From NCBI GenBank assembly GCA_018715445.1, contig DVLP01000201.1, forward strand, positions 1 to 10,164: a stretch of 10,164 bases of DNA. Reading direction: 5' to 3'. The translations under genes were made by a program, and so were the position numbers. The notes under the pieces were generated by a model, which saw only the letters and a list, made by a program, of their open reading frames with translations, made no database searches and was not told the origin of the DNA. Every line of letters starts with the position of its first letter. The stretch's first letter is position 1. This DNA comes from Candidatus Avipropionibacterium avicola (GTDB lineage Bacteria > Actinomycetota > Actinomycetes > Propionibacteriales > Propionibacteriaceae). Positions 1-10,164 of the stretch are shown in pieces.

Positions 1-345
1 GGCCAACCTGGCCGGTGCCTGCACGCAGTACGAATCGGTGAGCAGCTCGCGCAGCTCGTCCCAGTCGGTGGCCTCGTCCAGCACGATGCCGACCGCGTTG
101 GACGACCAGCCGGCCCGGAAGTAGGGGTGGCCGAGATGCTCGAAGGCCATCACCTCGTCGGGTTCGGCGCGGAACATGATCCGGTACAGCTGGTCCTCGC
201 CCCCGAAGACATGCGCCACGGTGGCCTGGCCGACCCGCCACCGCACCCCCGTCCAGGCATCCTCGCTGTGGCACTCGGGGAAGGCGTCGAGGATGGCCGC
301 CAGACGGCGGACGGTCTCGGTGGGGACATCGGGGCGTTCGGACAC
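1..345 (-). CDS. MmcQ/YjbR family protein (partial, C-terminus beyond window)
   Basis: This is a partial gene: 115 codons are open from a GTG at 345 to the window edge, with no stop inside. The visible protein has the N-terminal helix and strand pattern of the MmcQ/YjbR (DUF419) family: an early AFPECHSEDAW segment (residues 21-31), a WRVGQATVAHVFGG strand pair (36-49), a GWSSNAVGIVLD segment (79-90), and the family's closing block DWDELRELLTDSY...APARLA (94-115). Family members are about 110-120 residues with a CyaY-like fold; they are often called DNA-binding, but their cellular role is unclear. The GTG at 345 is chosen because an AGG lies about 9 bases upstream and the sequence resembles the family from there. 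An in-frame GTG at 375 would add ten residues that look less protein-like. The gene is transcribed divergently from rpsF. Only a few C-terminal residues should be missing. Confidence 0.75.
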   Translation of the reverse strand, partial: MSERPDVPTETVRRLAAILDAFPECHSEDAWTGVRWRVGQATVAHVFGGEDQLYRIMFRAEPDEVMAFEHLGHPYFRAGWSSNAVGIVLDEATDWDELRELLTDSYCVQAPARLA

Positions 346-393
346 AGGTGCAAGCCTGACAGAAGCCTGTGACACCGAAGCCGTGACCACGAC

Positions 394-423
394 TTGGGGC
401 CGGGGCCGACCCTCCGCTAGAGT
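394..423 (+). promoter_or_regulatory. Candidate sigma-70-type promoter of the rpsF operon
   Basis: TTGGGG (394-399) and TAGAGT (418-423) are separated by 18 bp. The -10 fits the actinobacterial TANNNT pattern, and the -35 keeps TTG. Transcription would begin near 430, giving a 5' leader of about 90 nt before rpsF. This is the best promoter match in the 346-522 divergent spacer. I see no equally good match facing the minus-strand gene at 345. It is assigned by pattern only. Confidence 0.5.
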
Positions 424-465
424 GGTCAGCTGGCTGACTTCGATGGTCGGCCGATGCATTTACGC

Positions 466-511
466 CCTCCTGCCACGGGGCCGTCCCGTGGCCGCAACAG
501 ACCAGAGGAGG
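466..511 (+). promoter_or_regulatory. Structured rpsF leader, candidate S6:S18 complex-binding motif
   Basis: An 8-bp perfect hairpin, GCCACGGG (472-479) and CCCGTGGC (485-492) with loop GCCGT, is enclosed by a second helix. In that helix CCTCCT (466-471) pairs with AGGAGG (506-511), the Shine-Dalgarno of rpsF. The 3' side between the helices is an unpaired bulge (493-505) that begins at a CCG (492-494). The described S6:S18 complex-binding motif of rpsF leaders is a CCG in a bulge flanked by a stem and a hairpin, so both position and shape fit. The inferred role is translational feedback: the S6:S18 complex would hold the Shine-Dalgarno in the helix. The fold was worked out by hand and no energy was computed. 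Confidence 0.55.
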
Positions 512-522
512 TGGAGTTGCGT

Positions 523-810
523 ATGCGCAAGTACGAAGTCATGGTGATCCTGGATTCCGACGTCGACGACCGCCAGGTGCAGCCCACGATCGATGGACAC
601 CTGAAGACCGTCACCGACGAAGGCGGAACGATCGACAACATTGACGTCTGGGGACGTCGTCGGTTCGCCTACGAGATCAACAAGAAGCCCGAAGGCATCT
701 ACGCGGTGATCGACCTGACCTGCGAGCCCGCCACGGTCAAGGAACTCGAGCGCCTGATGGCGATCAACGAGAAGGTCGTGCGCACCAAGGTGCTGCGTCC
801 CGGCAAGTGA
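523..810 (+). CDS. rpsF: 30S ribosomal protein S6
   Basis: This is a 95-residue protein of normal S6 length. It opens with the family start [15 protein letters not shown] and contains the segments [19 protein letters not shown] (42-60) and the closing helix and strand [22 protein letters not shown] in shortened form at 74-95. S6 binds S18 and the central domain of 16S rRNA in the small-subunit platform. ATG 523 is chosen because the protein then begins at the conserved MRKYE; the Shine-Dalgarno AGGAGG ends 11 bases upstream. An in-frame TTG at 517 lies closer to it (5 bases) and would add two residues, so the true start could be either. It is the first gene of the rpsF-ssb-rpsR-rplI operon and is probably autoregulated through the leader structure that covers its Shine-Dalgarno. 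Confidence 0.97.
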
Positions 811-817
811 CCGCCTG

Positions 818-853
818 AACCGTCTCGGGACCGCATGTCGGACCCGTACGGTT
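818..853 (+). promoter_or_regulatory. Long imperfect hairpin in the rpsF-ssb spacer
   Basis: AACCGT (818-823) pairs with ACGGTT (848-853), CGGG (826-829) with CCCG (843-846), and CCG (831-833) with CGG (839-841), around a CATGT loop. This gives 13 bp interrupted by CT/T and A/A mismatches. It begins eight bases after the rpsF stop. No U-run follows, so a full terminator is unlikely. A partial attenuator, RNA processing site or 3'-end stabiliser that sets the S6:SSB ratio is possible. The function is inferred. Confidence 0.5.
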
Positions 854-896
854 TGATGGTCGCCAGAGGCAAACCCAACTCACAGGGGAGACAGAC

Positions 897-1457
897 ATGG
901 CAGGCGAGACACCCATCACCGTGATCGGCAACCTGACGGCCGATCCCGAACTGCGCTTCACCCAGTCCGGTGCGGCCGTGGCGAACTTCACCGTCGCCTC
1001 GACCCCGCGGACCTTCGATCGCCAGACCAATGAGTGGCGTGACGGTGACGCGATGTTCCTCGGCTGCTCGGTCTGGCGTCAGGCCGCTGAGAACGTGGCC
1101 GAGTCGCTCCAGAAGGGCATGCGCGTCATCGTCCAGGGCCGGCTCAAGTCACGGTCCTACGAGACCCGTGAGGGCGAGCGTCGCACGGTCTTCGAGATCG
1201 ACGTCGACGAGGTCGGTCCCGCCCTGCGCTATGCCACCGCCAAGGTCACCAAGACCGGCGGCGGGGGCGGCGGAGGCTACTCCGGTGGGCAGGGCTCCGG
1301 CGGAGGCAACGGTGGCGGCTACTCCGGTGGGGGTGGCGGCGGCCAGAGCCGCGGCGGCGATGACCCGTGGGGTGGCGGTGGCTCCGGTGGCGGTGGCAAC
1401 CGCGGCGGAGGCAACGATCCCTGGGCGACCCCGCAGAACGACGATCCGCCCTTCTGA
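897..1457 (+). CDS. ssb: Single-stranded DNA-binding protein
   Basis: This 186-residue SSB coats single-stranded DNA during replication, recombination and repair. Residues 1-115 form the OB fold, with the family segments [26 protein letters not shown] and [14 protein letters not shown]. Residues about 120-178 are a disordered Gly-rich linker broken by two DPW motifs (near 156 and 174). The protein ends in DDPPF, the acidic-aromatic tip that recruits partner proteins. ATG 897 is preceded by GGGGAG (885-890) at 6-base spacing. The gene lies between rpsF and rpsR, the usual actinobacterial arrangement, and is the essential-type copy rather than a competence or phage paralogue. A structured spacer lies on each side of it, which could uncouple its expression from that of the ribosomal proteins. 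Confidence 0.97.
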
Positions 1458-1509
1458 TCCGTCGTTCTGACCAACAACTGAACAGACACCAAGCACACAA
1501 AGGCACATT

Positions 1510-1523
1510 CCGACGTACGTCGG
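1510..1523 (+). promoter_or_regulatory. 14-bp perfect palindrome just upstream of the rpsR ribosome-binding site
   Basis: CCGACGTACGTCGG is its own reverse complement. It ends eight bases before the AAGGAG (1532-1537) of rpsR. As RNA it can form a 5-bp stem with a GUAC tetraloop; as DNA it could be a dimeric operator. It is the only strong symmetry in the 87-base ssb-rpsR spacer. I cannot say which use, if any, is real. Confidence 0.35.
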
Positions 1524-1544
1524 GCTTCTGGAAGGAGCACCACA

Positions 1545-1781
1545 ATGGCCGCTGCACCCAATCGCAAGCCGAAGAAGAAGATCGCACCGACCAAGACCAC
1601 CCGGGTGGGCGAGGTCAACTACAAGGACGTCACGCTCCTGCGCAAGTTCATCTCCGAGCGCGGCAAGATCCGCGCGCGTCGGGTCACCGGACTGTCGGTC
1701 CAGGACCAGCGCAAGGTCGCCATGGCGATCAAGAACGCCCGCGAGATGGCGCTGCTCCCGTACGCGTCGACCGCACGCTGA
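1545..1781 (+). CDS. rpsR: 30S ribosomal protein S18
   Basis: This is a 78-residue S18, the partner of S6 in the small-subunit platform. The family core is clear: [19 protein letters not shown] (24-42), [14 protein letters not shown] (45-58) and [13 protein letters not shown] (61-73). The N-terminus is Lys-rich (RKPKKKIAP). The protein has no cysteine, so it is the zinc-independent form of S18; some actinobacteria carry a second, Cys-containing copy elsewhere. ATG 1545 follows AAGGAG (1532-1537) at 7-base spacing. The rplI start is 20 bases after the stop, consistent with one transcript. Confidence 0.97.
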
Positions 1782-1801
1782 GAAGAAGGCAGGAGACATC
1801 C

Positions 1802-2254
1802 ATGAAACTCATCCTGACTGCTGAGGTCCCCAAGCTGGGCCTGGCCGGCGACATCGTCGAGGTCAAGGACGGCTACGGCCGCAACTACCTGCTTCCCCAG
1901 GGCTACGCCATCGTGTGGACCAAGGGCGGCGAGTCGCAGATCGAGGGCATCAAGCGCAGCCGTGACGCCCGCGAGATCCGCGACCTGGACCACGCCAAGG
2001 AGGTCCGCGACCAGATCGAGGGCCTGCAGGTGCAGCTCCCGGTCCGCTCCGGCGAGAACGGCACGCTCTTCGGTGCCGTCACCCCCGCGCTGATCGCGTC
2101 CGCGATCCGCAAGGCCGGTGGCCCCAGCGTTGACAAGCGCAGCGTCGAGGTCGCCAAGCCGATCAAGTCGCTGGGCAACCACACCGTCGGTGTGAAGCTC
2201 CACGAGGCCGTGACCGCGCACTTCTCCCTCGGAGTCGTCGCCGAGGAGGCCTGA
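1802..2254 (+). CDS. rplI: 50S ribosomal protein L9
   Basis: This 150-residue L9 has the full two-domain length. The N-terminal 23S rRNA-binding domain (1-about 50) carries the signature VKDGYGRNYLLPQGYA (21-36). A charged connecting helix (about 45-75) follows, then the C-terminal domain (about 80-148) with NGTLFGAVTPALIASAIRKA-type sequence and a VDKRSVE...IKSLGNHTVGVKLHEAV end. L9 reaches out from the L1 stalk base and limits frameshifting and ribosome collisions. AGGAG (1791-1795) lies 6 bases before ATG 1802. It is the last gene of the operon: a strong terminator begins 32 bases after its stop. In many bacteria dnaB follows rplI, but here an unrelated operon does. Confidence 0.97.
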   Translation: MKLILTAEVPKLGLAGDIVEVKDGYGRNYLLPQGYAIVWTKGGESQIEGIKRSRDAREIRDLDHAKEVRDQIEGLQVQLPVRSGENGTLFGAVTPALIASAIRKAGGPSVDKRSVEVAKPIKSLGNHTVGVKLHEAVTAHFSLGVVAEEA

Positions 2255-2286
2255 GCCTCCCGGGTCGTCACGACCCACTGAACCGA

Positions 2287-2324
2287 CCACAGGCCCGTCC
2301 GGATCCGTCCGGGCGGGCCTGTGG
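2287..2324 (+). terminator. Intrinsic terminator of the rpsF-rplI operon
   Basis: CCACAGGCCCG (2287-2297) pairs perfectly with CGGGCCTGTGG (2314-2324). A U-G pair and a further 5 bp, CCGGA (2299-2303) with TCCGG (2308-2312), follow, and a TCCG loop closes the hairpin. The total is about 17 bp. The tract that follows (CGTTGTCT) is only mildly T-rich, as is common in GC-rich actinomycetes. The position just after rplI supports the call. Confidence 0.85.
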
Positions 2325-2340
2325 CGTTGTCTGACCGAAC

Positions 2341-2384
2341 TCACAGGTTGCGCACAGGACTCCCTCAGCCACCCCACAGGGGGG
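2341..2384 (+). promoter_or_regulatory. Four 11-bp-phased CACAGG-like units, candidate response-regulator site
   Basis: Consecutive 11-bp units read TCACAGGTTGC (2341), GCACAGGACTC (2352), CCTCAGCCACC (2363) and CCACAGGGGGG (2374). Three carry an exact CACAGG and the third unit carries CTCAGC. Direct 11-bp repeats are the layout of PHO boxes bound by OmpR/PhoB-family regulators in Streptomyces. TCACAGC-N4-TCACAGC is the described Mycobacterium PhoP site, close to the first two units here. The array sits upstream of an operon with a polyphosphate polymerase domain, which suits phosphate or envelope-stress control. I see no convincing -10 downstream, so the operon's promoter is not placed. Confidence 0.35.
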
Positions 2385-2424
2385 CGGTGTGGCATGGACC
2401 CACATCGAACGAGAAGGAGTCCTG
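2355..2424 (+). promoter_or_regulatory. Anti-Shine-Dalgarno pairing in the DUF4956 gene leader
   Basis: CAGGACTCC (2355-2363) is the exact reverse complement of GGAGTCCTG (2416-2424), which contains the GGAG of the ribosome-binding site. A small inner hairpin is possible, CCCC (2372-2375) with GGGG (2379-2382). If the transcript includes 2355, the 9-bp helix would hide the ribosome-binding site and allow translational control. If transcription starts later, it has no effect. The 5' arm overlaps the 11-bp repeat array. Confidence 0.4.
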
Positions 2425-2427
2425 CCC

Positions 2428-3030
2428 ATGTCACCGATCCTGTTGGTCGCTGATCTGGTCGCGATGGCGATCCTGGTCCTGGCCACCTACCTGCCCCGCC
2501 ACGGCCGTCGCGACCTGATGGTGGCCTTCGGGGTGGTCAACGTCGCCGTTCTGGCGGTCGCGATCGCCCTGTCGACCAGTGCGGCGGCGGCCGGGTTGGG
2601 CCTCGGCCTGTTCGGCGTGCTGTCGATCATCCGGCTCCGTTCGGAGGAACTGACCCAACGTGACGTCGCGTACTACTTCGCCTCCTTGGCGCTCGGCCTG
2701 ATCGCCGGGATCGGTGCCGACACGGTGATCAGCATCGGGTTGATGCTGGCGATCGTCACGGTGCTGTTCATCGGGGACCACCCGCGGCTGGCCCGTCGGA
2801 CGATCACCAGTCAGCTCGTGCTGGACCGGGTCCACACCGATCCGGCCGACCTGCGGGCGCGGGTCGGTGAACTGGTGCCGGGCTCGCTCATCGACGTCAC
2901 CGTCACCAAGCTCGACCTGGTCAACGACACCACCTGGGTGACGGTACGGGCCGTGCAGGACGCGCCGCGTCGTGACCGGACGATGACCGAGGTCGCGGCC
3001 GTACCCCAGGAACGGCAAGCCGTCCGATGA
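2428..3030 (+). CDS. DUF4956 domain membrane protein
   Basis: This is a 200-residue protein with about four membrane segments (roughly 3-21, 31-50, 80-97 and 98-117) and a soluble C-terminal domain (about 120-180). The diagnostic DUF4956 segment GLFGVLSIIRLRSEELTQRD occupies 60-79 and is followed by AYYFASLALGLI. The function of the family is unknown, but its genes are repeatedly found beside VTC-type polyphosphate polymerase genes, as here. ATG 2428 is chosen because AAGGAG (2414-2419) lies 8 bases upstream; an upstream in-frame start near 2389 has no comparable site. Its stop overlaps the start of the next gene (ATGA, 3027-3030), so the two are probably translationally coupled. The inferred role is membrane partner or regulator of the polymerase. 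The ribosome-binding site can be sequestered by an upstream 9-base complement. Confidence 0.85.
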   Translation: MSPILLVADLVAMAILVLATYLPRHGRRDLMVAFGVVNVAVLAVAIALSTSAAAAGLGLGLFGVLSIIRLRSEELTQRDVAYYFASLALGLIAGIGADTVISIGLMLAIVTVLFIGDHPRLARRTITSQLVLDRVHTDPADLRARVGELVPGSLIDVTVTKLDLVNDTTWVTVRAVQDAPRRDRTMTEVAAVPQERQAVR

Positions 3031-3845
3031 CCACCACCGCAGCACAGCCGGCCTGGGCCGAGCGACTGACCGGCATCGACCTCACCGAGCTCGTCGACCG
3101 GGCCCCGTTGATGACCCGGGTCGACCGCAAGTACCTCATCGACGCGGCCTGCCTGCCGCCGATCGTCGACGCACTGGCCGCTGATCCCGACAGCCGTACC
3201 CGAGTCCTCGAGATCGAGGGCCGACGGACCTTCTCGTACCGCTCGTCCTACCTCGACACACCCCGACTGACCACCTGGTACGCCGCGGCACGAGGCCGGC
3301 GCCGCCGGTTCAAGGCTCGGGTCCGCGACTACTGCGACACCGGGCAGCGCTGGCTCGAGGTCAAGACCCGTGGTCCGCGAGGGACCAGCGTGAAGCGTCG
3401 CATCGCCGTGGTCGGCCAGCAGGAGCGGCTGGGCCCGGAGCAGACCCGGTTCGTGGCCGAGGTGTTGGCCACCGAGCGGATCGACCCGGCACTGGCCGAC
3501 GAGCTGCAGCCCAGTCTGGTCACCACCTACCGACGCACCACCCTGCACCACCACGACGCCGTCCGCGAGTGCCGGATCACGCTCGACTCCGACCTCGGCT
3601 TCACCTCCCCAGCCGGGGTGACCCGGTCGGCGCCGGGGCTGGTCGTCGTCGAGGTGAAGGCCGGTCCGAGCCCGATGCCGGTCGAGCACCTGTTGTGGCG
3701 GCACGGGCACCGCCCCATCACCACCAGCAAGTACGGCGTCGGGATGGTCTGGACCCATCCCGAGCTGCCGGCCCTGAAATGGCGCCGGGCACTCGCCCGT
3801 CATCGTTGCGCCGCCACCCCCACCTCCCAAGGAGCACCGTCATGA
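3027..3845 (+). CDS. VTC-type polyphosphate polymerase domain protein
   Basis: This 272-residue soluble protein has the triphosphate-tunnel fold of the VTC domain. Tunnel-lining basic and acidic residues appear in order: RVDRKYLI (31-38), the YRSSYLDTP strand (71-79), RRRRFKARVR (91-100), LEVKTR (110-115), K123/R124, YRR (168-170), RITLD (183-187), VVEVK (207-211) and the closing SKYGVGM (234-240). In yeast Vtc4 this fold makes inorganic polyphosphate from ATP; bacterial single-domain homologues are annotated by homology and few have been tested. There is no signal peptide or membrane segment, so it probably acts in the cytoplasm against the membrane protein encoded upstream. Both ends overlap neighbours by ATGA. 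It could also be a non-synthetic polyphosphate or nucleotide sensor, since tunnel folds serve several reactions. Confidence 0.88.
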   Translation: MTTTAAQPAWAERLTGIDLTELVDRAPLMTRVDRKYLIDAACLPPIVDALAADPDSRTRVLEIEGRRTFSYRSSYLDTPRLTTWYAAARGRRRRFKARVRDYCDTGQRWLEVKTRGPRGTSVKRRIAVVGQQERLGPEQTRFVAEVLATERIDPALADELQPSLVTTYRRTTLHHHDAVRECRITLDSDLGFTSPAGVTRSAPGLVVVEVKAGPSPMPVEHLLWRHGHRPITTSKYGVGMVWTHPELPALKWRRALARHRCAATPTSQGAPS

Positions 3846-5461
3846 CCACCCATCCGTTCCGTCCCTGGCGCCGTCGACTGGTCGCCGGACTGGCCGCCAT
3901 GGCCCTGACCGTTGGCATCGTCGGCTGCAGTGTGCCCGGCACCAGCGACCCTGCCGGCGGCGAGCCGGCGACCACCGGTGCAGCCGCGGTCTCGACTGCG
4001 ACCGGCTTCTCCGACAATGTCGAGAGCCATGCCGATGCCGACGACGCCGACTACGACCAGGCCGAGGCGACCACGATCGACCTGGCCGACGGATCGACCA
4101 GCGTCAGTGGGCAGGACGAGGACGGCGTGGAGGTCGACGGTGACCACGTCCTGATCTCGGCGCCCGGCACCTACGTCGTGAGCGGCATCCTGACCGACGG
4201 GCAACTGGAGATCGACAGCGAGGCCGACGGCAAGGTCCGGATCGTGATGGCCGATGCGAGCCTCACCTCCACCACCGGGTCACCGTTCGTGGTCACCGAG
4301 GCCGACGAGGTCGTCCTCGTGCTGGCCGACGGCACCGTCAACGACCTGACCGACGGCACCGGCTATGACGATGACGCCGACGACGCCCCGAACGCCGCCC
4401 TCTTCTCGATGGCCGACCTGACCATCGGTGGCACCGGCGAACTCCACGTCACTGGCAACACCAATGACGGGATCGCCACCAAGGACGGCCTGGCGATCCT
4501 GTCCGGGACCGTCACCGTCACTGCCGTCGACGACGGGATCCGTGGCAAGGACTACGTCGACGTCACCGGCGGCACGGTCACCGTCGAGGCCGAGGACGAC
4601 GCCATCAAGTCCGACAACGAGGACGACGACACCGTCGGCTGGGTCCGGATCAGTGACGGCACCGTGACGATCACCGCCGGGGACGACGGGATCCACGCCG
4701 AGGGCGACCTGGAGATCGCCGGCGGCACCGTGACCGTCGCCGAGTCGGTCGAAGGACTGGAAGGGGTCACCGTCACCGTCTCCGGCGGCGTGGTCGACAT
4801 CACCAGCTCCGACGACGGTCTGAACGCGACGGCCGGCTCGACCACCGACGAATCCGGTGACGAGTCGGGTCGTGGGGCCGGGCCCGGTGGCGGTGGTGGC
4901 GGCATGGCCAATGACGGCTCAGTGCTCACCATCTGTGGTGGTGAGCTGACCGTCGATGCCGAGGGTGACGGGCTCGACTCCAACGGCAACCTCATCGTCA
5001 CCGGCGGCGTGACTGTGATCAACGGTCCGACGAGCAACGGCAACGGGGCGCTGGACGCCAACGGCACGATCACCGTCGACGGCGGCACACTGGTCGCCAG
5101 CGGCAGCTCCGGGATGGCCGAGTCGCCGGCGGCCGGTGAGGCCGGCTGGTTGGCGGTGGCGTTCGACTCCACCCTCGAGGCGGGCACCACCGTGGTCGTC
5201 CTCGACGGTGACACCGTGATCGGCAGCTTCACCTCGACCAAGGCCGCCGACTCGTTGGTGCTCTCGGTCGACGGCATCACCGAGGGCCAGACCTACACCA
5301 TCGCGACGATCTCGGACGACCGTACGGCCGGTTGGGCCGACGGTGGCAGCGCCGACGGCACGACCACCCTCACCGAGGTGACCGCCGGTGAGGCCATCGC
5401 CGGCGGTATGGGAGGTGGCCCCGGCGGTGGTGGCCCCGGCGGTGATCGCCAGCCACGCTGA
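3842..5461 (+). CDS. Acidic beta-helix lipoprotein, carbohydrate-binding DUF4353 (Cthe_2159) type
   Basis: This 539-residue protein starts with a basic n-region (RPWRRR), a hydrophobic stretch and lipobox IVGC with Cys29, so it should be a surface lipoprotein. After an acidic linker (about 50-80) come repeating strands of a right-handed beta-helix. Turns read DDGI, DDAI, DDGI, VEGL, DDGL and GDGL about every 20-24 residues, each followed by a GGTVTV-like strand (about 220-425). A Gly-rich insert (about 345-354) interrupts the helix, residues 430-515 form a separate beta domain, and the tail is GGMGGGPGGGG. This matches Cthe_2159-like proteins; the Clostridium thermocellum founder binds cellulose and pectin and has calcium sites. 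Asp-rich turns here suggest Ca2+ binding. ATG 3842 has AAGGAG (3829-3834) 7 bases upstream and overlaps the polymerase stop. The ligand is unknown. Confidence 0.85.
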   Translation: MTTHPFRPWRRRLVAGLAAMALTVGIVGCSVPGTSDPAGGEPATTGAAAVSTATGFSDNVESHADADDADYDQAEATTIDLADGSTSVSGQDEDGVEVDGDHVLISAPGTYVVSGILTDGQLEIDSEADGKVRIVMADASLTSTTGSPFVVTEADEVVLVLADGTVNDLTDGTGYDDDADDAPNAALFSMADLTIGGTGELHVTGNTNDGIATKDGLAILSGTVTVTAVDDGIRGKDYVDVTGGTVTVEAEDDAIKSDNEDDDTVGWVRISDGTVTITAGDDGIHAEGDLEIAGGTVTVAESVEGLEGVTVTVSGGVVDITSSDDGLNATAGSTTDESGDESGRGAGPGGGGGGMANDGSVLTICGGELTVDAEGDGLDSNGNLIVTGGVTVINGPTSNGNGALDANGTITVDGGTLVASGSSGMAESPAAGEAGWLAVAFDSTLEAGTTVVVLDGDTVIGSFTSTKAADSLVLSVDGITEGQTYTIATISDDRTAGWADGGSADGTTTLTEVTAGEAIAGGMGGGPGGGGPGGDRQPR

Positions 5462-5592
5462 CCACGCCCGCCGAGCCCGTACTCCACGCACGCCGAGCCC
5501 GTCGAGGCGCCACCCCACGCCCGCCGAGACTGCTCTCCACGCCCGCCGAGCTCGTCGAGGCGCCACCCCAACGCCCGCCGAGCTCGTCGAGG
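5462..5592 (+). repeat. Tandem repeat, 53-bp period built from 22- and 31-bp subunits
   Basis: Starting at the first base after the lipoprotein stop, five subunits begin at 5462, 5484, 5515, 5537 and 5568. Each opens with CCACGCCCGCCGAG or a one-base variant. Subunits 1 and 3 are 22 bp, with divergent ends CCCGTACT and ACTGCTCT. Subunits 2 and 4 are 31 bp and continue through (C/T)CGTCGAGGCGCCACC. The larger unit is therefore 53 bp, present twice, plus a partial third copy. The core CCGAGC(C/T)CGTCGAGG is the same as in the dispersed repeats at 8812 and 9368. The whole 5462-5629 spacer holds nothing else that I recognise. Confidence 0.85.
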
Positions 5593-5629
5593 TGTGTCGC
5601 TTCCCGGCCCACGGTGCCACCATGGAGAC

Positions 5630-5908
5630 ATGAGCGAACTTCACTGTCCGGCCCGGTTCGTGGTCTTCTCCGATGCCGACGCACCGGAGGTCGTCGATGC
5701 CCTCGGCCGTGAGCACATCGCCCTGGCCGTCACCGGCCAGGTGGATCCGCGGCTGACCGACGCCGCCACCGTGCCCGAGGCCCTCGCCGACCTCGCGGAC
5801 CGCTACCGGGGCGAATGCGTCTCGGTCCAGTTGGCCCCCGAGGTCCGCAACAGCCTGGACGACACCACCCCACCGCCCGCCGACCAGCAGATCACCCTGC
5901 TCCCCTGA
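5630..5908 (+). CDS. Small hypothetical protein
   Basis: I do not recognise this 92-residue protein. It is acidic and soluble, with no signal peptide or membrane segment. A likely strand ARFVVFSDA (8-16) is followed by a helix, a strand IALAVTG (30-36), a helix (48-59), a strand ECVSVQLA (62-69) and a disordered Pro-rich tail. That alternation suggests a small alpha/beta domain. G/C third positions support real coding. ATG 5630 is chosen because family-like sequence appears to begin there, although GGAG (5624-5627) is too close to be a good ribosome-binding site. A GTG at 5594, in frame, would add 12 residues and start at the edge of the tandem repeat. It stands alone between the repeat and a convergent terminator. 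Confidence 0.55.
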   Translation: MSELHCPARFVVFSDADAPEVVDALGREHIALAVTGQVDPRLTDAATVPEALADLADRYRGECVSVQLAPEVRNSLDDTTPPPADQQITLLP

Positions 5909-5930
5909 TCGGATCCACGTACTCTGCGCT

Positions 5931-5979
5931 GATCCACGCCCGCTGCAGCGTGCGTCGATGAGCACGAAGGGCGTGGATC
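5931..5979. terminator. Hairpin between convergent transcripts, likely bidirectional terminator
   Basis: GATCCACGCCC (5931-5941) and GGGCGTGGATC (5969-5979) form an 11-bp perfect stem. A nested 5-bp helix, CGTGC (5949-5953) with GCACG (5962-5966), lies inside the loop. It sits between the stop of the small plus-strand gene (5908) and the stop of the minus-strand sulfatase gene (6008), where transcripts from both sides must end. A second GATCCACG at 5912-5919 could replace the 5' arm. There is no strong T-run on either side. Confidence 0.6.
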
Positions 5980-6007
5980 ATGTTGGGGGAGGCGCGCAAC
6001 CCCGCGG

Positions 6008-7429
6008 TCAGACGGGGAGTTGGTTGGGGTGGGGCTTGTCGCCGACCGACTCCTGGTGGCGGCGCAGCCGCGCGATGAGCTCCTGGCGGACCTCGGCGTA
6101 GGCGGGGTCGTGGAAGACATTGGTGAGCTCGTGGGGATCGGCCTCGAGATCGTACAGCTCCCACTCCGGGGGGAAGGTCTTGGTCGAGGTGCCCGGCAGA
6201 CCCAACCCGTCGTTGTAGAAGTAGATGATCTTGTAACGCTCGGTGCGCAGCCCGTAGTGGGCCAGGGTGGCGTGCTCGGTCTCGTCGTTCTGCCAGTACC
6301 GGTAGTACGCCTCGCCCTCCTCGGGGTCGACGGCCTCGCCGGTCAGCTGGGGCCAGAAGCTCTCACCCTGCATCCGTTCGTGCGGCTCGACCCCGGCCGC
6401 CTCGAGCAAGGTCTTGGCGAAGTCGACATTGGTGACGATCTTGCGTACGGGCTCGGTGCTGGCCGGGATTCGTGAGGGACAGCTGACCAGGAAGGGCATC
6501 CGCAGCGATTCCTCGTACATGAACCGCTTGTCGAACCAGCCGTGGTCGCCGAGGAAGAAGCCCTGGTCCGACACGTAGCTCAGCACGGTGTCGTCGAACT
6601 GGTCGTGCTCGTCGAGCCAGTCGATCAGCCGCCCCACGTTGTCGTCGACCGAGGCGACACAGGCCAGGTAGTCCTCGAGGTAGCGGCGGTACTTCCACTT
6701 CGCCAACTCCACATGGTCCAACCCGGGCGGGGGAGTCTGCTTCAGGTCCCGTTCGGTGAGGTCGTCGGCCACCCGCATCAACGCTCGCTGGGCCGCGCTG
6801 CTGCGGGTCGCGTAGTCGTCGAAGAAGGTCTCCGGCAGCGGGATCTCTGCGTCGGCGTACATCCCGGCATGCTTCTCGTCCGGCTCCCAAGGACGGTGCG
6901 GGGCCTTGTGGTGCACCAACAGGCAGTACGGCTGGTCCTGCGGCAGGCTCTCCACCCACTCCAGGGCCATGTCGGTGATGATGTCGGTCGCGTAGCCCTG
7001 GACCTGCATCGGGCCGTCCTCGGTGAGGAACTTCGGATCGTGGTAGTCGCCCTGACCGGGCAGCACAGCCCAACGGTCGAAGTCGACCGGGCTGTGGCCG
7101 AGTCCTTCGCCGAGGTGCCACTTGCCGAAGATCGCCGTCGCGTAGCCGGCCTTCTTCAACTGGGAAACGAAAGTGGGCTGGTTGGACAGCATCGGCGTCG
7201 CCAGGGTGAAGACACCGTTCACGTGCGAGTGGGTGCCGGTGAGGATCGAGGCTCGGCTCGGCGTGCAGATCGAGTTCGTGACATAGCAACGGTCCATCCG
7301 CCGGCCCCGCTCGGCGATCTCGTCGAGCCGCGGGGTCTGGTTGACCCGAGAACCGTAGGCGCTGATCGAGTGGGCAGCGTGGTCATCAGTGAGGACCATG
7401 ATGATGTTCGGGCGGCGGCGATCGGTCAT
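6008..7429 (-). CDS. Formylglycine-dependent sulfatase (family S1)
   Basis: This 473-residue sulfatase would cleave sulfate esters, probably on a sugar. The maturation signature is CTPSR at 55-59, where Cys55 should be converted to formylglycine. Metal-site residues appear as LTDDH (13-17) and SDQGFFLGDHGW (287-298, with D288). Active-site GKWHLG (102-107), HHKAPH (173-178) and K301 are present. Residues about 385-470 form the C-terminal subdomain, with YGLRTERYKII and WELYDLEADPHELTN. The nearest recognised groups are N-acetylglucosamine-6-sulfatase or mucin-desulfating types; the substrate is not assignable. There is no signal peptide: the protein starts MTDRRRPNIIMVL, so it seems cytoplasmic. 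ATG 7429 is chosen for that family-like start, but no good ribosome-binding site precedes it; an in-frame start at 7474 would overlap the MATE gene. No maturase gene is in the window. Confidence 0.93.
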   Translation of the reverse strand: MTDRRRPNIIMVLTDDHAAHSISAYGSRVNQTPRLDEIAERGRRMDRCYVTNSICTPSRASILTGTHSHVNGVFTLATPMLSNQPTFVSQLKKAGYATAIFGKWHLGEGLGHSPVDFDRWAVLPGQGDYHDPKFLTEDGPMQVQGYATDIITDMALEWVESLPQDQPYCLLVHHKAPHRPWEPDEKHAGMYADAEIPLPETFFDDYATRSSAAQRALMRVADDLTERDLKQTPPPGLDHVELAKWKYRRYLEDYLACVASVDDNVGRLIDWLDEHDQFDDTVLSYVSDQGFFLGDHGWFDKRFMYEESLRMPFLVSCPSRIPASTEPVRKIVTNVDFAKTLLEAAGVEPHERMQGESFWPQLTGEAVDPEEGEAYYRYWQNDETEHATLAHYGLRTERYKIIYFYNDGLGLPGTSTKTFPPEWELYDLEADPHELTNVFHDPAYAEVRQELIARLRRHQESVGDKPHPNQLPV

Positions 7430-7445
7430 GGGCTGACTGTACTGC

Positions 7446-8789
7446 TCACGCACCGGTGCGAAGCCAGCGGTCACCCACCGCGCGGACCCCCAGCGTCACC
7501 AGTCGCGCCACCATGAACCCGGTGTAGGCGATCCACAACCAGACCAGGCCTGCAGCGCCCATCCCGCCGGCGAAGTGGTGCACCGCCCACGCCAGGACGA
7601 GGTAACTCCCGGTTGCGATCATCCCGGCCAGCGCCAGGTAGCGGGCATCGCCGGCACCGATCAGCACACCGTCGAGGACGAAGACTGCCGCGCTGACCGG
7701 CGTGACCACCGCGACCACCAGCAACACGTGGCCGAGCAACTCCTGGACGGCCGGGTCAGGGCTGAAGAAGCCGGCATAGACGGGGTGGGTGAGCCAGACC
7801 AGCACGCCGAAGCCGACCCCGGCGACGACACCCCACCACAACATCCGCTTGGTCAGCAGGCGGGTGACGGTGACATCGCCGGCGCCGAGGTAGCGCCCGA
7901 TGATGGCCTGGGCGGCGATCGCCACCGCATCGAGCATCATCGCCAACATCATCCACAACGCGTTGGTGATCTGATGGGCTGCAATGGCAATGGTGCCGAA
8001 GCCGGTCGCCAGCACCGTCGTGGTGGTGACGGCGATCTGCAGGCTCAGGGTCCGCAGCACCAGCCAGCCACCCTGACGCGCGTTCGCCAGCACCCCGGAA
8101 CGCGTCGGACGCAGCGGTACGCCCTCGCGTCGCGCCTTCACCGTGACGATCGTGGCGAGCAGCAGCCCGCCACTGACCTGGGCGATCGCCGAGCCGATGC
8201 CGGCGCCCATGATGCCGAGGCTGGTCCCGTGCACCAGGCTGATCGTGAGGATCGCGTTGGCGACATTGATCCCGATCGCCACCCACAAGGGTGTGCGGGT
8301 GTCCTGCAGCCCGCGCAGCACCCCGGTCGAGGCCAACATCATCAACAGCCCGAACAGTCCCAGCGCGGCAAACCGCAGGTATCGCACCGACTCGTCCGCG
8401 ACCTCGGGGGCCGGGCCGTACAACCCGACCAGGAACGGCGCCGCCAGGCTCATCCCGACCGCGAGGACGACTCCGAGCCCTGCGCCCAGCACGATCCCGT
8501 CCAGGCCGCTGCGCAGTGCCCGGTCACGATGACCGGCCCCCAACTGACGTGCGACGGTGGCGGTCGTGCCGTAGGCGAGGAAGATGCACAGCCCGACCGG
8601 GATCCCGAGCAGGTTGGCGGCGATCCCGAGCCCGGCCAGCGAGACCGTCGACAGGTGCCCGACCACAGCGGCGTCGACCATCACCATCGCCGGCTCGGCG
8701 ACCAGGGTCGCGAAGGCCGGGATGGCCAGCGCGAGGACCTCTCGGGTCAACCCGCGCGGCGTCTCGGTCCGGGACGTGGCAGTGGGCAC
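7446..8789 (-). CDS. MATE family efflux transporter, DinF subfamily
   Basis: This is a 447-residue integral membrane transporter with about 12 hydrophobic segments arranged as two six-helix halves. The first helix carries VMVDAAVVGHLSTVSLAGLG (36-55). Its Asp39 lies where DinF-type members use an Asp for proton coupling, and EP (32-33) is also conserved. The family exports cationic or bulky compounds with H+ or Na+. Residues 1-15 are hydrophilic and cytoplasmic. The start is GTG 8789, with only a weak GGGGCG-like site upstream; an ATG eight bases earlier is out of frame. The stop is 16 bases before the sulfatase ATG, so the two may share a message. The substrate cannot be told from sequence; a link to sulfated or desulfated compounds is only a guess from the neighbour. 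Confidence 0.92.
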   Translation of the reverse strand: MPTATSRTETPRGLTREVLALAIPAFATLVAEPAMVMVDAAVVGHLSTVSLAGLGIAANLLGIPVGLCIFLAYGTTATVARQLGAGHRDRALRSGLDGIVLGAGLGVVLAVGMSLAAPFLVGLYGPAPEVADESVRYLRFAALGLFGLLMMLASTGVLRGLQDTRTPLWVAIGINVANAILTISLVHGTSLGIMGAGIGSAIAQVSGGLLLATIVTVKARREGVPLRPTRSGVLANARQGGWLVLRTLSLQIAVTTTTVLATGFGTIAIAAHQITNALWMMLAMMLDAVAIAAQAIIGRYLGAGDVTVTRLLTKRMLWWGVVAGVGFGVLVWLTHPVYAGFFSPDPAVQELLGHVLLVVAVVTPVSAAVFVLDGVLIGAGDARYLALAGMIATGSYLVLAWAVHHFAGGMGAAGLVWLWIAYTGFMVARLVTLGVRAVGDRWLRTGA

Positions 8790-8811
8790 CGCCCCATTGT
8801 CTCCGCCCGTC

Positions 8812-8830
8812 CCCCGAGCTCGTCGAGGGG
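8812..8830. repeat. Short dispersed palindromic repeat between the hydrolase and MATE genes
   Basis: CCCCGAGCTCGTCGAGGGG fills most of the 41-base gap between the hydrolase stop (8831-8833) and the MATE start (8789). It has complementary CCCC/GGGG ends and a CGAGCTCG palindrome inside. The same core recurs at 9368-9386 and in the tandem array at 5462-5592. It looks like a REP-type element; similar CCCTGAGCTTGTCGAAGGG-like sequences are common in bacterial genomes. The position right at a stop codon is typical of such elements. Confidence 0.75.
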
Positions 8831-9643
8831 CTACCGCAGCGCCGCGTTGTCCAGCACCGGCAGGGCCCGGCGCGCCTGCCCGACCAGGTCGTGGTCCAGG
8901 TCGACCACCAGCAGCTCCGGTCCGGCTCCGGCCTCAGCGACGATCCGGCCGAGCGGGTCGACGACCATCGAGTGACCCACCCCCAGGGGCGCGGTCCCGA
9001 CCTGCTCGCCCTGCGGCTCGGCCTGGTCACAGGCGATCACCCAGCAGGTGGTGTCGAGCGCCCGGGCGGTGGACAGGGTGCGCCACTGCTCCAGCTTGCC
9101 CGCACCGGCACCCCAGGACGCCGAGACCAGCAGCAGCTCGGCCCCGGCGTCGGCATAGCCAGTGAAGAGCTCGCCGAAGCGCAGGTCATAACAGATCGCG
9201 ACCCCGGTCGGCCACGTGCCGAGGGTGAGCTGCAGGGTCTGGGTGCCCGGACTGACGGTGTCGGACTCACGGTGCCCGAACGCATCGAAGAGGTGGATCT
9301 TGTGGTAGCGGTGGTGCGCGGTCCCGTCGGTCAGCAGCAAGGTGTTGCGGACCTTGGCACTCCTGCCCCCCGAGCCCGTCGAGGGGTCCTCAGCGCGGGT
9401 GAACATCCCGACCGCGACGGTGAGCTGGTGGCGTCGGGCGATCGCCGCGACCTCGGCAGCCCAGGGCCCGTCGGTCTCCTCAGCGGTCGTTGCCGGATCG
9501 GCGGCGAACCAGGCCATGGTCGCCTCCGGGAAGACGACCAGGCTCGCCCCGGCCTCGGCGGCACGGGCGGTCCACTCCTCGACCAGGGCGAGATTGTCCT
9601 CGGGCCGTGGCCCGCTGGTCAGCTGGGCGAGGGCGACACGCAT
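8831..9643 (-). CDS. Carbon-nitrogen hydrolase (nitrilase superfamily, Nit/omega-amidase-like)
   Basis: This is a 270-residue amidohydrolase of normal length for single-domain members. The Glu-Lys-Cys triad is visible: E40 in VVFPEA, K115 in YHKIHLFD and C151 in ICYDLRF. The fold's other blocks are present: AQLTSG at the N-terminus, HSMVVDPLGRIVAEAG near 223-238 and a C-terminal DNAALR. Members cleave side-chain amides; the KIHLFD and ESDTVSPG pattern resembles Nit1/Nit2 enzymes that repair deaminated glutathione or act on omega-amides, but the substrate is unproven. ATG 9643 has an excellent GGAGGTGAG upstream (9654-9646). It starts 23 bases after the crgA stop. Residues 86-93 (DPSTGSGG) are encoded by an inserted short repeat in a surface loop before the KVRNTLLLTDG strand, so activity need not be lost. 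Confidence 0.92.
   Translation of the reverse strand: MRVALAQLTSGPRPEDNLALVEEWTARAAEAGASLVVFPEATMAWFAADPATTAEETDGPWAAEVAAIARRHQLTVAVGMFTRAEDPSTGSGGRSAKVRNTLLLTDGTAHHRYHKIHLFDAFGHRESDTVSPGTQTLQLTLGTWPTGVAICYDLRFGELFTGYADAGAELLLVSASWGAGAGKLEQWRTLSTARALDTTCWVIACDQAEPQGEQVGTAPLGVGHSMVVDPLGRIVAEAGAGPELLVVDLDHDLVGQARRALPVLDNAALR
9368..9386. repeat. Copy of the short palindromic repeat inside the hydrolase gene
   Basis: CCCCGAGCCCGTCGAGGGG differs by one base from the copy at 8812-8830. It is in frame with the minus-strand hydrolase gene and is read there as about seven or eight residues of DPSTGSGG. Nitrilase relatives usually have a shorter loop at this place, which supports a real insertion (comparison from memory). 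Confidence 0.75.
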
Positions 9644-9666
9644 GGCTCACCTCCGGTGGTGGGCGG

Positions 9667-10164
9667 CTACTTCCACTGGGTCGCGACGATGAAGGAGATG
9701 GCCATCAGGCCCATCCCGATCAGGATGTTCCAGTTGCCGAGCTGCATCATGAACGACAGCACGGCCGAGGCTTCGGGGTAGTAGGACACGATGTAGTAGA
9801 CGATCAGCCACAGCGCACCCAGCACGAAGGCTGCGACGAAGGTGGGGGCAACCCACCGGCGGCTGGCGGGGCTGCGGCGCGCCGGTGTGTCGCTGCGCCG
9901 CTTGCTCGCCACGCCGCGTCGCTCGGCGGTGGTACGGCGCCGGGTGGTGTCCCGGCTGGAGCCCTTGTCGCCCGAGTCCTTCGCATCCGAGTCCTTCGAC
10001 CCGGACTTCTTGGAGTCGGTGCCCTTCGATCCGGACGCCTTGGAGTCCGAGCCCTTCTTCCTGCCGGCGGGCGCGTCGTCCTTGGCCGCCGCCTTGTCGG
10101 CGCGGCGCTCGGCGGCCTCGGCCCGTCGTTCGGCGCGACGGCGCTCCGCCGCGGTGGGGGCAGT
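9667..10164 (-). CDS. crgA: CrgA-like septation protein with long N-terminal extension (partial)
   Basis: The reading frame is open from the window edge to the TAG at 9667, giving 165 visible codons. The last 62 residues are a typical CrgA core: VAPTFVAAFVLGALWLIVYY (first membrane helix), an external loop with YYPEASAV, the conserved GNWN and a second helix ending FIVATQWK. CrgA is a small divisome protein that links FtsZ/FtsI and restrains or times septation in actinomycetes; known forms are about 80-95 residues. Here the core is preceded by an Ala/Arg/Glu stretch (AERRRAERRAEAAERRA), then a Lys-Ser-Asp-Gly low-complexity tract. A GTG at 9912 would give a normal 81-residue CrgA but has a poor ribosome-binding site, and the upstream codons have the same GC-rich third positions. 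I therefore infer that the start lies beyond the window. Confidence 0.8.
   Translation of the reverse strand, partial: TAPTAAERRRAERRAEAAERRADKAAAKDDAPAGRKKGSDSKASGSKGTDSKKSGSKDSDAKDSGDKGSSRDTTRRRTTAERRGVASKRRSDTPARRSPASRRWVAPTFVAAFVLGALWLIVYYIVSYYPEASAVLSFMMQLGNWNILIGMGLMAISFIVATQWK
9972..10052. repeat. Short tandem repeats inside the crgA extension
   Basis: Two 30-bp units (9993-10022 and 10023-10052) match at 25 of 30 positions, and two 15-bp units (9972-9986 and 9987-10001) share CCGAGTCCTTCG. All lengths are multiples of three, so the frame is kept. They encode the SDSKASGSKGTDSKKSGSK-type tract. This suggests that the extension grew by repeat duplication. Confidence 0.7.

Follow-up and report, generated by a model that had tools for sequence, protein, structure and literature searches.

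What could a membrane protein, a relative of the yeast polyphosphate polymerase Vtc4 and a very acidic surface lipoprotein do together? The question is raised by a stretch of 10,164 nucleotides from Candidatus Avipropionibacterium avicola (contig DVLP01000201.1, positions 1 to 10,164 of the forward strand; this whole stretch is called here the window), in which three genes follow each other on the + strand. The first (2428..3030) codes for a DUF4956 membrane protein of 200 amino acids (PF16316, E 8.7e-51), the second (3027..3845) for a VTC-domain protein with a triphosphate tunnel fold of 272 amino acids (PF09359, E 1.6e-21) and the third (3842..5461) for an Asp-rich β-helix lipoprotein of the Cthe_2159 family with 539 amino acids (PF14262, E 1.4e-72). 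Both the VTC and the lipoprotein genes start inside ATGA overlaps, at 3027-3030 and 3842-3845. An earlier reading of the window from its letters (the sequence-only reading) had already linked the three genes by these overlaps and called them DUF4956, VTC and an Asp-rich β-helix lipoprotein; its coordinates were exact and its family calls are supported. The answer that we prefer, with a probability of roughly 0.45, is that the trio forms one envelope module in which the VTC and DUF4956 proteins would make polyphosphate at the membrane, and perhaps export it, for a surface effector acting on glycans. The export and the glycan role are the parts that we infer.

A near-obligate pair and its outer partners

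We have searched a phylum sample of 296 genomes from the phylum of the window, and a named sample made of the best 80 of 542 candidate loci, which leans to the relatives of the query and may repeat species of the phylum sample. The starts of open reading frames were set mechanically. In the phylum sample DUF4956 was detected in 33 genomes, VTC in 32, Cthe_2159 in 16 and CotH in 21. All 32 genomes with VTC fall among the 33 with DUF4956, and the remaining one (G274) has a sub-cut-off match alone, to a protein judged by eye to resemble MgtC. Three of the 38 VTC matches were second stretches of genes already counted, which leaves 35 places; DUF4956 was located within 1.2 kb and on the same strand at 34 of them. 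VTC was present at 77 of the 80 named loci. A control genome, that of Corynebacterium glutamicum, gave matches to VTC, DUF4956 and CotH. Our analysis indicates that the DUF4956-VTC unit is real and that the pairing is near-obligate, beyond chance; the conserved adjacency in actinomycete relatives that the sequence-only reading implied was indeed found. Two gene orders exist. In class 1 DUF4956 precedes VTC (90 junctions, 77 with an in-frame overlap of four bases, 57 ATGA and 20 GTGA) and in class 2 VTC comes first (21 junctions). At one locus (L149:8998-11121) DUF4956 is followed directly by Cthe_2159, VTC being unmatched in the retrieved locus. Within the family of the window, VTC was found in 15 of 57 genomes and not in the sole genome of the same genus, a patchy presence that fits an accessory surface trait.

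The third gene varies. It was counted as near within 6 kb in the phylum sample, 5 kb at the named loci and 4 kb for the VTC tree. The 35 phylum places had Cthe_2159 alone in 12 cases, CotH alone in 19, both in 1 and neither in 3 (18 of the 35 Cthe_2159 rows were used, weaker rows and second stretches being dropped, and all 31 CotH rows). The corresponding numbers for the 77 named loci with VTC were 47, 19, 5 and 6. This avoidance gave Fisher p values of 6e-6 in the phylum sample and 9e-9 at the named loci, with related loci counted as independent. In a VTC tree of 114 rows, built by a short search and with several long branches, the two third-gene labels need at least 8 changes, and both labels appear in both gene-order classes. 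When each label was set against all others, well-supported branches forced 6 changes for CotH and 8 for Cthe_2159 (12 and 14 in the best tree). Thus, CotH and Cthe_2159 mostly replace each other beside VTC and DUF4956. The sequence-only reading had described related clusters as often adding a CotH-type gene; the clusters are conserved as it said, but CotH usually stands in the place of Cthe_2159, the two being found together at only 5 of the 77 named loci. Since the families alternate, CotH is not merely missing from the window. CotH had no match in the window's own genome.

The lipoprotein of the window is a clear member of its family, with 244.5 bits against a curated cut-off of 25.8 for PF14262 and a match to the solved structure 4peu/4phb at E 2e-34. 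Its lipobox, IVGC, ends at Cys29, in agreement with the surface anchoring proposed earlier, and a simple pattern count found lipobox-like motifs in 60 of 71 Cthe_2159 proteins. It contains 64 Asp and 28 Glu against 5 Lys and 11 Arg. Motifs of the [DN]D[GA][IL] type recur along it like a ladder (residues 208, 230, 252, 281 and 324, with weaker ones at 375 and 401). Calcium is presumably bound by Cthe_2159 proteins. The original Cthe_2159 of Clostridium thermocellum, for which binding of cellulose and polygalacturonate is reported in the available text of PMC6712302, has the same β-helix domain. They differ in that the window protein is longer (539 amino acids versus a chain of 313 residues), lipid-anchored and tied to VTC and DUF4956. 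A phage origin was also considered and rejected, as a single search of viral contigs for relatives of the lipoprotein, reaching close ones only, gave none. In Rothia aeria (L162:11037-16422) six successive frames matching Cthe_2159 are located behind VTC, by local duplication or breakage.

A similar location is probable for the alternative partner. Among 46 CotH proteins, 35 had a hydrophobic stretch and 14 a lipobox-like motif, and neither feature was seen in the searched part of any of 113 VTC proteins. One open frame of 790 amino acids (G294, L130:6510-8882) holds a VTC domain followed by a CotH domain; between them lie a stretch of positive charge and a lipobox-like segment that is hydrophobic, as would be expected if VTC were inside and CotH outside the cell. 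This frame is possibly a natural fusion; that it makes a single protein in the cell is hypothetical. By eye, the genes that come next at three of the six named loci with neither family resemble an aldo/keto reductase gene at L203, an aldolase gene at L140 and, at L211, a partly masked nuclease-like gene; no third partner family was seen in these three.

Tunnel enzyme and membrane protein

A search of solved structures with the single VTC sequence gave nothing useful and a profile was needed to reach yeast Vtc4, which the VTC family profile matched at E 2.2e-22. The structure model (predicted local distance difference test, pLDDT, 91.2) had as best solved match 3g3r, the Vtc4-AppNHp-Mn complex (E 8.3e-12, template modelling score 0.61 by query length). 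The model is therefore Vtc4-like, as expected from the sequence-only reading, with the basic nature of the tunnel judged from residues and not from computed electrostatics. In the alignment, R31, K35, R98, R100, K113 and K123 of the window correspond to R196, K200, R264, R266, K281 and K294 of Vtc4, and R170, R183, E209, K211 and K235 to R361, R373, E426, K428 and K458. These eleven charged positions are kept in all of 111 to 113 sequences (window included, two weak VTC frames left out), except for one Lys at R183, so that the tunnel residues, taken before to look intact, are intact by this comparison too. Apart from R264, R266, E426 and K458, the compared positions, including K281, R361 and R373, are ones that we take to be tunnel residues of Vtc4. 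As for these four, the available text of PMC9911596 describes R264A/R266A/E426N as an impaired mutant, and that of PMC4641920 names Lys458 as catalytic. Because the Vtc4 residues are conserved, polyphosphate synthesis by the VTC protein is likely, and we predict it to be a polymerase of the Vtc4 type.

Vtc4 works in yeast within a complex with Vtc1/2/3. The resemblance of the trio to this complex lies in the Vtc4-like tunnel domain, the eleven compared residues and the presence of a membrane partner. Vtc1 is a DUF202-type protein. In contrast, no SPX or Vtc1-type membrane domain was found in the three proteins (Pfam gave DUF4956, VTC and Cthe_2159 only), the membrane partner is MgtC-like, and export is hypothetical. 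No membrane segment was detected in the VTC protein of the window, and NCBIfam assigned no family to any of the three.

The DUF4956 protein scores 172.4 bits against a curated cut-off of 30.6 for PF16316, and its model (pLDDT 74.7, modest) has five predicted helices followed by a β-α-β-β domain. Comparison by hhalign of 115 DUF4956 sequences with 14 MgtC proteins gave E 2.5e-8 and a probability of 94, with the profile rebuilt without one MgtC-like row, L139; the aligning profile that included this row gave 1.5e-7 and 90.7. As controls, the reversed MgtC profile gave E 0.15 and the best of 40 neighbour-gene clusters 0.007. A smaller set of 11 sequences gave E 3.1e-4 and a probability of 39, and PF02308, the Pfam family of MgtC/SapB, was unlisted for the window protein at E up to 0.01. 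Judging from these profiles, DUF4956 is a remote relative of MgtC/SapB, the similarity extending across the membrane and C-terminal regions. It is nevertheless a separate Pfam family, genetically tied to VTC, and with a distinct conserved motif (GLGLFGVLSIIRLRS in the class of the window). The sequence-only reading had called it a membrane protein of unknown function. The membrane location stood, and in place of the second half there is this kinship, already in print for one homologue, which the accessible part of PMC12345266 describes as an MgtC domain plus an ACT domain. The protein of row L139 (7315-8001), MgtC-like by eye, matched the DUF4956 profile at E 6.7e-4, under the cut-off.

Surface glycans, Pel and the proposed module

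We have examined the neighbours of 113 loci (the 80 named, 32 from the phylum sample and the window), with cluster families assigned from one representative each. Members of a phosphodiester glycosidase (NAGPA) cluster were found within about 8 kb at 24 loci and a GT2/GtrA glycosyltransferase cluster at 21, all of which also had NAGPA. At 16 of them NAGPA and GT2/GtrA precede DUF4956, VTC and Cthe_2159 in a run of five genes on the same strand, in Arthrobacter, Paenarthrobacter, Microbacterium, Agrococcus and one record titled Sporosarcina; the other five have a different arrangement. NAGPA was detected in 16 of 19 genomes searched, as a single match in 14 of the 16, and in the ten flagged genomes among the 19 the sole match falls inside the locus. 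In the genome of the window the single NAGPA match is on a different contig. Domain scans of 26 of the 47 CotH proteins found CHB_HEX_C_1 in 4, Fn3_assoc in 4, LTD in 3 and CBM_2 in 2. What lies near these loci in other genomes suggests a chemistry of surface glycans and phosphodiesters. The record titled Sporosarcina (L145) has an Arthrobacter-like five-gene run and VTC, a case of either contamination or transfer.

There is prior evidence of similar genes beside Pel clusters. The text available from PMC7112168 lists CotH, a polyphosphate polymerase, DUF4956 and DUF4832 as Pel-adjacent genes, and that from PMC2879425 lists VTC and CotH genes for a Clostridium perfringens locus. According to the accessible part of PMC12345266, the Streptococcus intermedius homologues SIR_1592-1594 were deleted. 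Aggregation of the DUF4956 and CotH mutants was slightly lower in buffer, significantly for DUF4956, and reduced by more than 50% in artificial sputum, and the Pel level was up in the DUF4956 mutant and down in the CotH mutant. A section title in the same source states that Pel production is independent of these accessory genes, and its authors' analyses, in that text, found no three-gene arrangement outside a Pel locus. In our sample, CotH and DUF4956 were both within 6 kb at 19 of the 35 VTC places, all in genomes without a PelG match. PelG was over the cut-off in 3 of the 296 genomes (6 at E 0.001) and in none of the 32 with VTC. The gene set is thus not a private part of Pel synthesis, and in this sample it is independent of Pel. 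A Pel accessory cluster in the window's genome was ruled out (no PelG match in a genome 91% complete), and no pel families were found among the window proteins scanned. The trio shares with the Gram positive Pel accessory genes the VTC and DUF4956 pair, an extracytoplasmic partner and an association with surface polysaccharide (PMC7112168, PMC12345266, available parts); it differs in having Cthe_2159 instead of CotH and in a genome without a PelG match. By title and abstract start we found no paper on the Cthe_2159 exchange or the five-gene run, in a search outside which most subscription journals fall. Beyond the sequence-only reading, our analysis adds that the outer partner is exchanged, that the tunnel residues are conserved, that the gene set is independent of Pel in this sample and that it has a link to phosphodiester and glycan genes.

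Under the module that we prefer, VTC would be a cytosolic tunnel enzyme making polyphosphate from ATP, and the MgtC-like DUF4956 protein might hold it at the membrane, control it or pass its product outward, by analogy with the membrane portion of VTC in yeast. Outside, the effector in the window would be the lipid-anchored, very acidic β-helix, probably binding cations and acidic glycan, and in other lineages a CotH-type kinase. Their shared task could be to build or modify a surface glycan or matrix that carries phosphate, as suggested by the NAGPA and GT2/GtrA neighbours elsewhere, the published Pel clusters and the carbohydrate-binding domains on some CotH proteins. We know of no agreed role for extracellular CotH-like kinases, for MgtC-like proteins of the membrane or for bacterial VTC domains, and the pairing together with the CotH/Cthe_2159 exchange joins these three into one system. 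In a bolder version, which we consider rather doubtful, VTC and DUF4956 would be a bacterial machine for polyphosphate synthesis and export. With its MgtC-type membrane part, this machine would be an independent counterpart of the VTC complex of eukaryotes. The exported polyphosphate would then be a phosphoryl source or a calcium-bound matrix for an exchangeable effector, either CotH kinase or acidic Cthe_2159 β-helix. Without it, the phosphoryl donor of an extracellular CotH kinase is not obvious. Export, if true, would explain how polyphosphate reaches the bacterial surface and what could supply a kinase in surroundings poor in ATP.

Several observations weigh against the module. The position of Vtc4 T198 is acidic in the bacterial copies (D in 90, E in 21, T in 1; n=112). 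The DUF4956 model has no solved-structure match at E <=0.001 (weak ones were unused) and any pore is hypothetical. For S. intermedius, the available text of PMC12345266 reports no aggregation or Pel change after the VTC deletion. The glycosyltransferase, NAGPA and two-component genes are absent among the annotated genes of the window, and the named loci come from the top of their candidate list. Of the 32 genomes with VTC, 24 also have PPK1, and the genome of the window is one of these; therefore VTC would be dispensable there for ordinary polyphosphate, and the co-presence suggests that it has a separate purpose or place.

Some of the same data could be read in another way, with VTC and DUF4956 as a sensor-regulator whose tunnel domain binds nucleotide, pyrophosphate or polyphosphate and whose MgtC/ACT-like protein signals across the membrane, tuning surface protein and exopolysaccharide assembly, with catalysis secondary. 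The MgtC kinship, the ACT-like C-terminal domain of the homologue and the altered Pel level and aggregation after deletion of DUF4956 or CotH and not of VTC (PMC12345266, available part) agree with this. So do response regulator and histidine kinase clusters, each near 33 of the 113 loci (31 with both) and, for the response regulator, within 3 kb at 25, all counts without a chance control. However, the Vtc4 residue set is complete and is kept across two divergent classes, which a sensor alone would not require, and we regard this reading as somewhat unlikely. A hydrolytic role, as triphosphatase or another tunnel enzyme, seems improbable to us. The VTC model also matches thiamine triphosphatase, ygiF, AtTTM3 and CyaB-like structures. 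Tunnel-fold hydrolases have a patch of four Glu at sites that are basic in Vtc4, according to the accessible text of PMC4641920; with the register inferred from that text and the fourth position unmapped, one patch position is acidic in the window (D33, where Vtc4 has T198) and two (R31 and K211) are basic, a mixed result; the catalytic Lys458 is kept. Least probable of all is that the genes are merely co-transcribed surface genes with no joint pathway, since, despite the 6 of 77 named loci with neither third gene and the patchy presence in the family, the DUF4956-VTC adjacency is near-obligate and the third-gene families avoid each other, with repeated swaps.

Surroundings of the trio in the window

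The window is headed by the S6, SSB, S18 and L9 genes. After rplI there is a hairpin with perfect outer arms of 11 bases on the + strand (2287..2324), a probable terminator from the sequence and the RNA fold. The fold of 2270-2340 gave -40.4 kcal/mol (z -5.18, with 0 of 200 shuffles as good); it was unlisted by a simple terminator scan and no T run follows it. Since this strong hairpin closes the ribosomal-protein gene group, the three genes are probably transcribed as a separate unit. A search for sigma-70-type promoters in 2200-6100 gave none, and neither RNA families nor tRNAs were found in the window. The ATG of DUF4956 at 2428 has 8 bases upstream the motif GAAGGAG (2413..2419, + strand), a probable ribosome binding site. 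Behind the trio, on the - strand, are the genes of a sulfatase, a MATE transporter, a carbon-nitrogen hydrolase and CrgA.

Two repeats are found in this last part. The sequence CCGAGCYCGTCGAGG has five exact copies, at 5493-5507, 5546-5560, 5578-5592, 8814-8828 and 9370-9384, four of them intergenic and one within the carbon-nitrogen hydrolase gene. With up to 2 mismatches there are 9 copies versus 0.29 expected, and it looks like a dispersed repeat element. Besides, an inverted repeat (TGATCCACGCCC / GGGCGTGGATCA) is located at 5930-5980 in a longer palindrome, between a short open reading frame and the sulfatase gene.

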